Shown one piece after another: positions 3,721 to 10,938 of a DNA stretch of 10,955 nt. The stretch spans positions 1 to 10,955 of the forward strand of contig JAHFGF010000017.1 of assembly GCA_023247595.1 (NCBI GenBank), given 5' to 3'. The translations under genes were made by a program, and so were the position numbers. Every line of letters begins with the position of its first letter. The first letter of the stretch is position 1. The notes under the pieces are model-generated. The model did not search any database. It was not told where the DNA came from and worked only from the letters and a program-made list of their open reading frames with translations. The DNA comes from Candidatus Omnitrophota bacterium (GTDB lineage: Bacteria > Omnitrophota > Koll11 > Zapsychrales > Fredricksoniimonadaceae).

Positions 3721-3812
3721 TGAGAGGTAAAGAGGTATGGGGGTAAGAGCTATATGCCATGTTTTACGTTTCGATCTTTCCTTCATACCACTTACCTCTT
3801 ATCTCTTACCAC
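3721..3812. repeat. Intra-operonic hairpin element A (trpB-trpA spacer)
   Basis: An imperfect inverted repeat with arms at about 3721-3750 and 3784-3812 and a loop of about 33 bases. Read on the minus strand, the first arm is a run of heptamers close to GGTAAGA (four copies: GGTAAGA, GATAAGA, GGTAAGT, GGTATGA). The other arm is a run of related 8-base units (complement of AGAGGTAA). It begins two bases after the trpB stop codon and ends just before the trpA start, occupying nearly the whole spacer. A fold of about 20 pairs with a few gaps is expected. Confidence 0.65.
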
Positions 3813-3813
3813 T

Positions 3814-4989
3814 TTAAATGAGTGCCTGTATGGTTCCCATATCTTTATCTCCCCGACCGGAAAGAGACACGATGACCGTTGATTTCGTTTTAACCCTGCG
3901 TGCCAGCTTCGCTAAATAGGCGATCGCGTGCGAGGTCTCAAGCGCGGGGATGATCCCTTCCAAACGAGACAACAATTTCAAACCTTCGATCGCTTCGTGA
4001 TCAGTCACCGCAACATATTGCGCTCGGCCGGTTTGTTTGTAATACGAATGTTCCGGACCGACGCCGGGATAATCCAGGCCCGCGGAAATCGAATGAGCAA
4101 TCTGCACCTGCCCGTTTTTGTCCTGCAGCAAGTTGCTCTTACTGCCGTGAAGCACGCCAACGGTTCCTTTGGTCAATGTCGCGGAATGCTCGTGCGTGTT
4201 GACACCCAGACCGGCTGCTTCAACACCAATCATCTTGACGGACTTGTCGTTATAAAACGCATGAAAAAGCCCCATGGCATTTGATCCGCCGCCGACGCAG
4301 GCGATCAAATAATCTGGCAGCTTGCCTTCTTTGGTTTTAAATTGTTTACGCGCTTCTTCGCCAATGATCTTCTGGAATTCACGAACCATCAAAGGATACG
4401 GATGCATCCCTGCCACAGACCCGATAATATAAAACGTATCCCGGACATTGGTGACCCAGTCGCGGATGGCTTCGTTCATAGCGTCTTTCAATGTTTTTGA
4501 TCCGCTTTGGACCTCAACTACTTTCGCGCCGAGTAATCTCATGCGCACGACATTTAGCGCCTGGCGTTTGACATCTTCCGCGCCCATATAAATGACGCAT
4601 GCCATGCCGAAAAGCGCGCACACCGTTGCGGTCGCAACTCCGTGCTGGCCCGCGCCGGTTTCGGCGATGATTCGTGTCTTGCCCATCCGACGGGCAATCA
4701 ATATTTGTCCAATCGTGTTATTAATTTTATGCGCGCCGGTATGAAGCAAATCTTCCCGCTTTAAATAAACTTTAAGCGTTTTTAAATGCTTGCTCAAACG
4801 TTCGGCATAAAACAAATTGGTTGGCCTGCCGGCATAATCTTTGAGATATTGCAAAAATTCTCGTTTGAAGGCCTTATCGTTTCTCAATTTTGAAAATTCT
4901 TTTTCTAAATCGAGAAGCAATGCCATCAACGTTTCCGGCACATACCTTCCACCGAACTGACCAAAATGTCCATTTTTATCCGGAATCAT
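3814..4989 (-). CDS. trpB: Tryptophan synthase beta chain
   Basis: PLP enzyme that condenses indole with L-serine to form tryptophan, working as an alpha2-beta2 complex with TrpA. It has 391 residues, normal for TrpB1. The start MIPDKNGHFGQFGGRYVPETLM is typical. The PLP lysine is K88 in HTGAHKINN, the catalytic glutamate is E110 in AETGAGQHG, and the PLP-phosphate loop CVGGGSNAMG is present. The C-terminal serine-containing SGRGDKD segment is complete. It lies 24 bases after the DUF3108 gene, with no obvious Shine-Dalgarno sequence; a short GCGC/GCGC palindrome occupies the gap. It is split from trpF by four non-trp genes. Confidence 0.98.
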   Translation of the reverse strand: MIPDKNGHFGQFGGRYVPETLMALLLDLEKEFSKLRNDKAFKREFLQYLKDYAGRPTNLFYAERLSKHLKTLKVYLKREDLLHTGAHKINNTIGQILIARRMGKTRIIAETGAGQHGVATATVCALFGMACVIYMGAEDVKRQALNVVRMRLLGAKVVEVQSGSKTLKDAMNEAIRDWVTNVRDTFYIIGSVAGMHPYPLMVREFQKIIGEEARKQFKTKEGKLPDYLIACVGGGSNAMGLFHAFYNDKSVKMIGVEAAGLGVNTHEHSATLTKGTVGVLHGSKSNLLQDKNGQVQIAHSISAGLDYPGVGPEHSYYKQTGRAQYVAVTDHEAIEGLKLLSRLEGIIPALETSHAIAYLAKLARRVKTKSTVIVSLSGRGDKDMGTIQALI

Positions 4990-5013
4990 AATTTAAGCGC
5001 TACGCGCGGCGTA

Positions 5014-5715
5014 TCACTTGCCTCCCTTACTATAACTTTTCATATTCATGGCCGTATTGGCCATGCCAACCGCGCCATTAATCCTTAACGGAATTCTTTG
5101 TTCACTGGAATCAAACCAAACCTGATATTGGGAAGGCACACTGGACATATAAAATGACTGATACTTTTTTCCCGCGGTCTTGATCTCGACGGTTTTTTCC
5201 AATTTAAGAACGATATCCTTAGTTGGCAGCCTTAACTGAACCGTATCATCAATAGCAAAAGTTCCGAACGCGCGGTAACGGTAGATTGTGCCGTAAATAT
5301 TATCAATTTGTCCCTGTTTATTAATAACTTCCTGCGTTGTTTTTCCGCCGGCCACTTTGGTAATGACAATTTTTCCGTCTTTAGCAAAATACTCTTCGGT
5401 TATTTTTTCTTTATTTCCAAAAATATTTAAATCGCGCAAAACCTTAACCGGCGCAAATGTATCGACAGCCACATAAATCTTTTCCTCGTCGTAAAAATTA
5501 AAACCGTCAGCTTTAAAAACAATCAGATAAACCGGCTGGCCATTGATTTCGGCTTGCCCTTCGAAGGTTAACGTTGCTTCACCAGCCTTTACGGCCAGTT
5601 TTTTAATCGCATACGTTATAACCTCACCTTTTTCAAAAGGCAATTTTAAATCTTGCGCATAAGCCGGCACACTCAGAGCAATCATGATGAAGAAGAAACT
5701 AAGCGATCGCATCAT
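5014..5715 (-). CDS. Exported DUF3108 domain protein
   Basis: About 233 residues. From the ATG pair at 5715/5712 the N-terminus is MRSLSFFFIMIALSVPAYAQ, a clean Sec signal peptide with an AYA-Q cleavage site, so the mature protein should be periplasmic or envelope-associated. The body matches the DUF3108 type: it opens with FEKGEVITYAIKKLAVKAGEATL and continues as a beta-rich lipid-binding-like fold, ending in the VWFDSSEQRIPLRI segment. Its molecular function is not established. An upstream in-frame ATG at 5799 would add 28 charged residues ahead of the signal peptide and is unlikely. The chosen start overlaps the end of the M20 gene by about 17 bases with only a weak ribosome-binding site, suggesting translational coupling. 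The role of an envelope protein inside a trp operon is unclear. Confidence 0.85.
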   Translation of the reverse strand: MMRSLSFFFIMIALSVPAYAQDLKLPFEKGEVITYAIKKLAVKAGEATLTFEGQAEINGQPVYLIVFKADGFNFYDEEKIYVAVDTFAPVKVLRDLNIFGNKEKITEEYFAKDGKIVITKVAGGKTTQEVINKQGQIDNIYGTIYRYRAFGTFAIDDTVQLRLPTKDIVLKLEKTVEIKTAGKKYQSFYMSSVPSQYQVWFDSSEQRIPLRINGAVGMANTAMNMKSYSKGGK

Positions 5716-10236: not shown

Positions 10237-10266
10237 GATGACAAACAAACTTCCTTGAATGGCCTG

Positions 10267-10833
10267 TTACAGACGCAGGAAATTTTTTAAAATCTTCATC
10301 CCTTCTGTGGTCAGAATTGATTCAGGATGAAACTGCACACCCCACAATGGAAGGGTTTTATGACGGACTCCCATGATTTCCTGGTCGTCAACGGTTGATG
10401 CGGTAATTTCTAATTCGTTAGGCAGCGTCTTGGACTCGATAACAAGCGAATGATAACGCGTTGCTTCAAACGGATTATCAACATCTTTAAAAATTTCCCG
10501 ATTATCATGGTTGATTCTGGATGTCTTCCCGTGCATCAAAGATTTGGCATGAATAATATTTCCGCCATAGGCAAACCCGATGGCCTGATGCCCAAGACAC
10601 ACGCCGAGAATTGGTATTTTTCCAGCTAATTTCTGAATGATCTCAACGGAAATTCCGGCATCTTCAGGACGGCCCGGACCAGGAGAAATGACAATCTTCT
10701 CAGGCTTCATGTGTTCCACCTGGGAAACGGTCAAAGCATCGTTGCGGTAAACCTTCATGTCCGCCTTCAACTCGCCGAAATACTGCACGAGGTTGTAGGT
10801 AAACGAGTCGTAATTATCGAGCATCAAAATCAT
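10267..10833 (-). CDS. trpG: Anthranilate synthase component II (glutamine amidotransferase)
   Basis: Hydrolyses glutamine and channels ammonia to TrpE, which makes anthranilate from chorismate. It has 188 residues, a complete class I amidotransferase domain: MLDNYDSFTYNLVQYFGEL at the N-terminus, PGPGRPEDAG (oxyanion region), nucleophile C79 in LGVCLGHQAIG, and H169/E171 in VQFHPESILT. Proteins of this type can also serve p-aminobenzoate synthesis (PabA), but the trpDCF neighbours indicate tryptophan. The start at 10833 has TTAGGTG five bases upstream. TrpE is not in the window and is expected beyond the right edge. The gene lies directly after hairpin element E. Confidence 0.96.
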   Translation of the reverse strand: MILMLDNYDSFTYNLVQYFGELKADMKVYRNDALTVSQVEHMKPEKIVISPGPGRPEDAGISVEIIQKLAGKIPILGVCLGHQAIGFAYGGNIIHAKSLMHGKTSRINHDNREIFKDVDNPFEATRYHSLVIESKTLPNELEITASTVDDQEIMGVRHKTLPLWGVQFHPESILTTEGMKILKNFLRL

Positions 10834-10850
10834 ACAGCACCTAACTTATT

Positions 10851-10938
10851 GAAATTGAGAAATCAAGAAATTCATAGAAATTAAAAATAACTTGGATTCG
10901 TTTGTTAATTTCCAAATTTCTTAATTTCCATTCATTTC
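10851..10938. repeat. Hairpin element E upstream of trpG (GAAATT family)
   Basis: The left arm (10851-10884) has GAAAT(T/C) words starting at 10851, 10859, 10867 and 10877. The right arm (10907-10938) has complementary words starting at 10907, 10915, 10923 and 10933. The arms can pair imperfectly around a loop of about 22 bases. It is in the same family as element C, sharing a 26-base exact stretch in the right arm. The remaining bases of this gene-free region (10834-10850 and 10939-10955) hold the trpG ribosome-binding site and no recognisable gene; a TAA at 10952-10950 could be the end of an upstream gene, but too little is visible. Confidence 0.7.

Follow-up and report, generated by a model that had tools for sequence, protein, structure and literature searches.

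Hairpins built from tandem words in the spacers of an Omnitrophota trp operon and at gene junctions of its relatives

The trp operon of a Candidatus Omnitrophota bacterium raises the question of how hairpins of one design, built from different short words, came to occupy several of its spacers. The window analyzed here is the whole 10,955-nt stretch of contig JAHFGF010000017.1 (assembly GCA_023247595.1, positions 1 to 10,955), whose minus strand carries trpG, trpD, trpC, trpF, a ykgJ-like gene, a hypothetical gene (hyp), an M20 peptidase gene, a DUF3108-like gene, trpB, trpA, an M16 peptidase gene, a 57-aa gene, and rsfS-like and argS-like genes. Five spacers each contain a long imperfect inverted repeat whose arms are chains of repeated words. 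We consider that these are probably dispersed, non-autonomous miniature hairpin elements that reuse sites just past stop codons.

The hairpins, all on the minus strand, lie between trpB and trpA (3720..3802, arms 3720-3748 and 3775-3802; words in mRNA sense GGTAAGA, GATAAGA, GGTAAGT and GGTATGA), between hyp and the M20 gene (6860..6925; degenerate GGGGACTG/GGGAACTG words, the weakest of the five), between ykgJ and hyp (7269..7370), between trpC and trpF (8369..8438; TCGTTGN words), and upstream of trpG (10848..10940). The ykgJ–hyp and trpG-upstream copies have about four GAAATT words per arm, and the former includes the ykgJ stop codon (7353-7355) and codes for the final ykgJ residues. By eye, arms of about four words are seen in four hairpins, the hyp–M20 copy being too degenerate for counting. 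All five spacers out-fold their dinucleotide shuffles (RNA fold, 200 shuffles each, z −2.3 to −5.3): shuffles folding equally well or better numbered 4 for trpB–trpA, 3 for ykgJ–hyp and none for the other three. An explicit inverted-repeat score was reached by 0 of 200 shuffles in four of the five spacers and by 45 of 200 in hyp–M20, and a period-7/8/9 score was matched by 0 to 5 of 200 shuffles in all five (5 for hyp–M20). The preliminary description of this locus, made from the letters alone, had placed the hairpins correctly to within a few bases, and its claim that five long spacers carry inverted repeats of periodic words is borne out by these tests, with the hyp–M20 copy degenerate.

Among the six other window spacers tested, none combines an inverted repeat with periodicity. 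In five of them the inverted-repeat score was reached by 79, 156, 84, 31 and 8 of 200 shuffles; the sixth, downstream of the 57-aa gene, contains a strong hairpin without periodic words (1256-1290), which scores on the inverted repeat only (0 of 200 shuffles, and 96 of 200 for periodicity). A density of five elements in 10.9 kb is high (p ~0.015 at 13 elements per 100 kb, p ~0.0002 at 4.5 per 100 kb, both being assumed rates and not the window genome's own).

A search with the M20 protein returned 17 loci, 13 of them from Omnitrophota/Omnitrophica, the closest being L001 and L008. The relatives' genomes (labeled G001 and so on, with loci L001 and so on) are metagenome-assembled genomes (MAGs), scanned in part; G001 and G008 are congeners, and G011, G012, G014, G016, G017 and G018 belong to one genus. 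Genes were called as longest open reading frames (ORFs), hence some elements land in spurious ORFs, and the automatic element list contains a few non-elements. A word-blind detector was applied, which records periodic arrays and then those with an inverted partner, so that its counts are of arms and not of elements. It found 43 periodic arrays, 25 of them partnered, in 419 kb of G008, 104 and 63 in 399 kb of G011, and 232 and 140 in 926 kb of G012, that is, 6 to 16 partnered arms per 100 kb. Shuffling DNA of the same three genomes (419, 338 and 336 kb, three times each) left 2 to 15 arrays with 0 to 3 partnered, well below the real sequence; in 150 kb each, E. coli gave 2 arrays and 1 partnered, and a Trichormus plasmid 22 and 7. 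Partnered arrays lay outside called ORFs in 20 of 25 cases (G008), 38 of 56 (G011) and 35 of 53 (G012). The expectation that relatives would show structured spacers therefore holds for these three genomes and fails for ten other, more distant Omnitrophota loci, where 163 kb held 2 periodic arrays and none with a partner.

The unit that emerges is a pair of inverted arms, both about 30 nt long and built of about four tandem words of 7 to 8 nt, on either side of a loop measuring 0 to about 110 nt; a word has a core of about five letters and two or three freer ones. In family A, AGT-N-R-TA occurs four times and ends in TAAG, followed by the loop and an inverted counterpart ending in ACT (25 elements listed); strict 4+4 units number 15, G016 loci included. 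Five of the seven letters are at least 90% conserved over 81 middle words of this family, the fourth being free and the fifth mostly G or A. The words of families B and D are AGT-NN-TC and GTCAC-NNN, and the core stands out more sharply in families A, D and E, less so in TTTCGNN and CAAGGNN. Polarity is fixed: the strand of the left-arm word is constant in 20 of 20 pairs of family A, 14 of 14 of B and 19 of 19 of D, as well as in smaller families (2/2, 4/4, 2/2, 1/1 and 1/1). When the arms of six families were searched for a partner within 200 nt, 132 of 141 had theirs on the expected side and 5 on the wrong one; lone arms amount to 10 of 144.

Two oddities of structure were met in this survey. 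G008 contig C147:7876-8203 holds an unusually long TCGTTGN array, with plus-strand words over about 230 nt and then minus-strand words over about 75 nt. Six family-A hairpins (L097:13462, L090, L099, L101, L165 (G011) and L178 (G016)) contain a palindrome of about 67 nt (CCCTTAGAAATCGC...CGGGAT) at one fixed place inside an arm, and halves resembling it are found elsewhere, for example in L106. Since the place is fixed, some activity may target these hairpins.

That one architecture is written in differing words, as the preliminary description proposed, is supported in the window and at the relatives' junctions. Its further point, that the hairpins are not united by sequence, stands for GGGGACTG, for which no family was found in 18 genomes, and falls for TCGTTGN, GGTAAGN and GAAATT, which are multi-copy in some relatives. 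The TCGTTGN pattern has 71 matches in G008 (10 for the reversed control), 1 in G005, and 0 in G001 and in 12 others; GGTAAGN is present in 7 of 15 genomes and multi-copy in G001, G008, G011, G012 and G014; GAAATT has 6 matches in G008, 2 in G005 and none in 16 others. Strict family A gives 65, 43, 44, 0, 1 and 0 matches in G011, G016, G012, G017, G018 and G014, often two or more per element, and G014 has GGTAAGA words in its place. Copy numbers of word families jump between congeners, and a genome holds many families. At the scale of the phylum, strict family D is found in 37 of 384 genomes and its reversed control in 2 of 384.

The elements follow stop codons. The automatic list comprises 174 elements: 104 between co-directional genes, 13 between convergent and 6 between divergent ones, with 51 unplaced. 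For spacers of 60 to 400 nt, occupancy is 84 of 375 (co-directional), 9 of 43 (convergent) and 5 of 64 (divergent), a depletion between divergent genes (p=0.007). In the 104 co-directional cases the median distance is 3 nt from the stop codon to the unit start, and 12.5 nt from the unit end to the next start. Empty counterparts of occupied sites exist: hyp and M20 overlap as ATGA in L001 and are 86 nt apart in the window; the trpC–trpF gap is 10 nt in L001 and 88 nt in the window; a GTCAC-word hairpin stands at hyp–M20 in L014, where L011 and L012 keep the ATGA overlap; and G011 L101:16861 and G012 form a further empty and occupied pair. From these comparisons, the hairpins look like insertions into compact junctions. 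The earlier claim that they fill every long spacer is accordingly largely circular, as the hairpins themselves lengthened at least two spacers. The companion claim, that junctions of 30 nt or less lack hairpins, needs correction for trpG–trpD, whose gap is actually 39 nt with an ATG at 10227; and, spacers being long owing to the hairpins within them, hairpin-free short junctions are not independent evidence.

What becomes of a site in different genomes was followed at 52 orthologous junctions (G011 versus G012, plus one G014 locus, L014). Among 46 co-directional junctions, 8 are occupied in both genomes, 1 in G011 only, 1 in the other only and 36 in neither (Fisher 3e-7). When both spacers measure at least 60 nt, 7 are occupied in both, none in a single genome and 9 in neither; most of the unoccupied junctions are short (median 20–21 nt), which contributes to the co-occupancy signal. 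The two convergent junctions are both empty, and shuffled junction spacers gave 0 to 1 positives. A first table, of 48 junctions, had counted 8 occupied in both, 4 in G011 only, 1 in G012 only and 35 in neither. At four of the 8 shared junctions the spacers are 75–95% identical and hold the same element (one is the L011/L014 pair); at the other four they are 48–70% identical with different words, one being a related B-type word.

A wider view was obtained by flank matching, which placed 25 of 50 G011 elements. Judged by eye, the corresponding site holds the same word in 7 cases, a hairpin of another word in 9, a related B-type word in 1, tandem words or a short palindrome only in 2, a G+C-rich palindrome in 2 (one G012 place being counted twice), and nothing in 3; one was a non-element. 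Twelve distinct G016 elements, picked as family A, were treated likewise: 6 were placed in G012, where two are B, one CCGGAT, one AAGTGAG-like, one a tandem word without hairpin and one a family-A remnant, and 3 in G011, all of them family A. At two sites where A in G016 faces B in G012, flank identity is 96/95% and 93.6/82.5%, the change being limited to the unit.

The trp junctions themselves behave in the same way. At trpC–trpF the window has TCGTTGN, G011 and G016 have family A, and G012 has CCGGAT (three words in four genomes), with no word hairpin in G001, G010, G013 or G015. Upstream of trpG, GAAATT in the window corresponds to family A in G011 and family B in G012, and no hairpin was detected in G001, G008, G013 or G015. 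At trpB–trpA, where the window has GGTAAGA, G011 and G014 have a GTCACNNN-word (GTCAC) hairpin, and other relatives have none, or hairpins without words. G+C-rich palindromes of the GTAGGGGC type, devoid of words, fill some junctions, such as L008:2819-2893 (trpB–trpA of L008) and one in L137 (G012); they are another hairpin class.

Unit structure, dispersal, location, the contrast of empty and occupied sites and the pattern of reuse at post-stop sites are all observed, and we infer a mechanism as follows. A word family would multiply inside a genome in the form of complete hairpins with constant polarity, presumably copied in trans by some activity, and would settle just past stop codons, where insertion is tolerated. 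Such sites would then be used again, one family's hairpin being replaced by, or re-inserted as, another's at near-identical boundaries, and a resident hairpin may have a passive role as the stem at an mRNA 3' end or between cistrons. The five trp-operon copies would then be separate arrivals that lengthened a compact operon, and not a designed control of trp. A palindrome class that spreads into spacers was one of the roles first proposed for these hairpins, and the scans and junction comparisons support it.

Elements of comparable design are known, and the initial view that these hairpins resemble no known repeat was too strong; the comparisons that follow draw on excerpts of the papers cited. 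Short tandemly repeated repetitive (STRR) sequences of cyanobacteria are usually 7-bp repeats located between genes and able to form hairpins (PMC2670836); the Omnitrophota elements likewise are hairpin-forming tandem words of period 7 or 8 in intergenic DNA, and the Trichormus plasmid carries, near L201:43073-43134, a hairpin whose arms each contain about four TCAGGAG-like words. The host, however, is not a filamentous cyanobacterium, so that the grouping is one of design and not of membership, and fixed polarity, 4+4 units and word swaps at orthologous junctions go unmentioned in the excerpted text of PMC2670836. In Geobacter metallireducens, classes 1–3 are multi-copy arrays in which a hepta- or octanucleotide, variable at some letters, occurs three to five times in tandem, and classes 1 and 2 form pairs on opposite strands at variable distance (PMC2700814). 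Our arms are similarly inverted, with three to five words and variable spacing, a likeness of description that implies no shared origin; the Geobacter arrays, in contrast, were read as possible IHF/HU sites (PMC2700814). REP/REPIN sequences are also miniature extragenic hairpins in many copies and several families per genome (PMC3116915), and REP palindromes are reported as insertion-sequence targets (PMC1525189), but the Omnitrophota arms consist of tandem words with free positions instead of a single conserved palindrome, and no RAYT match was found in G011 or G001. The TAACTGA heptamers of marine Beggiatoaceae are tandem, located in spacers and patchy across phyla, but involve one word, as direct repeats mostly just upstream of starts, with one indirect repeat only (PMC4679880).

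The kind of element is therefore already known, though unexplained; what is new is its occurrence in Omnitrophota, its unit rules and the word swaps at one site. A literature search limited to titles and abstract beginnings, with few subscription journals, yielded neither a report of such elements from Omnitrophota nor a paper that brings STRRs, Geobacter arrays and the present hairpins together. If our reading is correct, the three may be one kind, defined by architecture and not by sequence, and similarity searches would break it up and conceal it. The exchange of words between close relatives would then amount to a natural experiment, in which genes, junction and design are constant and letters differ, and in which selfish spread, protein binding and a function based on shape could be distinguished.

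Several observations weigh against the spread of mobile hairpins. Inspection by eye of 25 family-A and 29 family-B listings revealed no target-site duplication, whereas miniature inverted-repeat transposable elements have terminal inverted repeats together with such a duplication; the L014 hyp–M20 hairpin does have ATGA on both sides, where both genes need it. No lone arm had a far partner (lone arms only, within 3 kb), and a composite transposon with distant word arms was rejected likewise. The Y1/RAYT transposase family (PF01797) is unmatched in 7 of 15 MAGs, G011 and G001 among them; G012 has 4 matches, and the set of 15 did not include G016. This may weaken RAYT-driven REPINs as the general mover. 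Reversed-letter controls also match, at 10 against 33 for GGTAAGN in G011 and 10 against 71 for TCGTTGN in G008; GGGGACTG words gave 4 weak matches in 18 genomes and their control 26. Strict family B gave 98 matches in 25 of 384 genomes and its control 127 in 20 of 384, a count that is uninformative on that word and shows only that arrays of such period are widespread. The near-palindromic CCGGAT family breaks polarity (8 to 1), and the concentration of variation in set letters is modest (0.78 versus 0.71 in the null, 119 arrays, z 4.9). The junctions sampled are few (52, from partly fetched MAGs), and none of the four divergent ones is shared, 2 being occupied in G011 only. Finally, plain insertion would require less junction reuse than is seen, and the reuse also agrees with selection for hairpin retention. 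A bolder reading would be a cassette exchange, in which an enzyme system recognizes post-stop hairpins by their shape and swaps word families in place; junction occupancy would then be inherited while sequence turns over, even between relatives whose flanks, in one case, share 95–96% identity. We regard such an exchange as rather unlikely.

One alternative is that cells require a stem behind certain stop codons, for 3'-end protection, processing or partial uncoupling of cistrons, and that any hairpin suffices, words drifting or being replaced while the stem is kept. Co-directional occupancy is indeed conserved although words differ at four of eight junctions, and where one genome alone is occupied the other has tandem words (G012, L096:13052) or a plain palindrome (G011, L167:1870). 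STRR hairpins have been suggested to raise transcript stability or couple translation in cyanobacteria (PMC2670836); in Anabaena variabilis stem-loops are found at the nif processing sites, and nifH1 had a shorter half-life once one of them was lost, a result cited as unpublished (PMC4284476). However, mismatched pairs on the mRNA strand of 95 co-directional elements comprise 66 G·U and 69 A·C, without wobble excess, and the variable letters of family A pair in 62 of 120 cases against 69.1 with arms permuted, without covariation. RNA pairing is therefore not visibly selected, which weakens an mRNA role, and other Omnitrophota carry these genes without hairpins. Family-B variable letters do pair above expectation (39 of 72 against 27.2 permuted, 35/2000), with subfamilies mixed, a further point against our reading. 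In family A the two arms give the impression of one word arrayed in opposite orientations, not of a maintained exact stem, and maintenance of an exact palindrome was dropped for want of covariation there. We hold selected stems to be a serious but doubtful explanation. As for a processing or ratio-setting role particular to the trp operon, as first suggested, hairpins throughout the scanned stretches of the relatives' contigs and the lack of a wobble sign speak against it, and trp-specific regulation was set aside likewise. Nor are the hairpins plain terminators, as had been recognized from the start: none of 16 terminator-like sites (G+C-rich stem and U-tract; 12.8 expected) falls within them. 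Known RNA families find no support, Rfam covariance models giving no match above cut-off on the window, only a sub-threshold microRNA match (23.7 bits against a cut-off of 73, E 0.11) to the opposite strand. TRAP-like tandem triplets were set aside, since their period and letters are different.

MetJ and plasmid omega are models of proteins that bind contiguous heptads or octads, and cores spaced by 7 or 8 bp could bind such proteins, or IHF/HU-like ones as proposed for G. metallireducens. The pattern of core and variable letters, the roughly four sites per array and the pairing of arrays agree with this, which is also the Geobacter authors' own reading (PMC2700814). We consider it improbable, as the elements are depleted in divergent spacers, where regulators act, placement follows stop codons, and the many unrelated words of a genome would require many proteins. 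A purely mutational origin, by local slippage and template switching in unconstrained spacers and with no mobile step, would account for arms that are tandem repeats, for words that begin at or in stop codons (the L008 word resembles a native gene end) and for the arrays that reversed-letter control words form in some genomes, a sign that many words arise. It seems to us very improbable in view of fixed polarity, constant unit ends, variation concentrated in set letters, and single families at many unlinked places, with family D spread across the phylum sample.

Regarding the genes of the window, a Pfam search of eight proteins backs trpC, trpF, trpA, M20 and M16, and gave no match for the DUF3108-like, ykgJ-like and hypothetical proteins, whose names are those of the preliminary description; the trpG, trpD, trpB, rsfS-like and argS-like labels are our presumed assignments from sequence. 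Just 3' of trpF, four relatives carry c-di-GMP-I or c-di-GMP-I-GGC riboswitch aptamers (L013:8847-9014, L015:8906-9076, L010:2862-3015 and L141:15755-15899); the Rfam search gave no such match in the window itself. The 57-aa gene (1310-1483, minus strand, MEKLSFYDVK...) lies between the M16 and rsfS genes, and the M16–rsfS spacers of L009, L010 and L015 contain a readable gene with a similar start.

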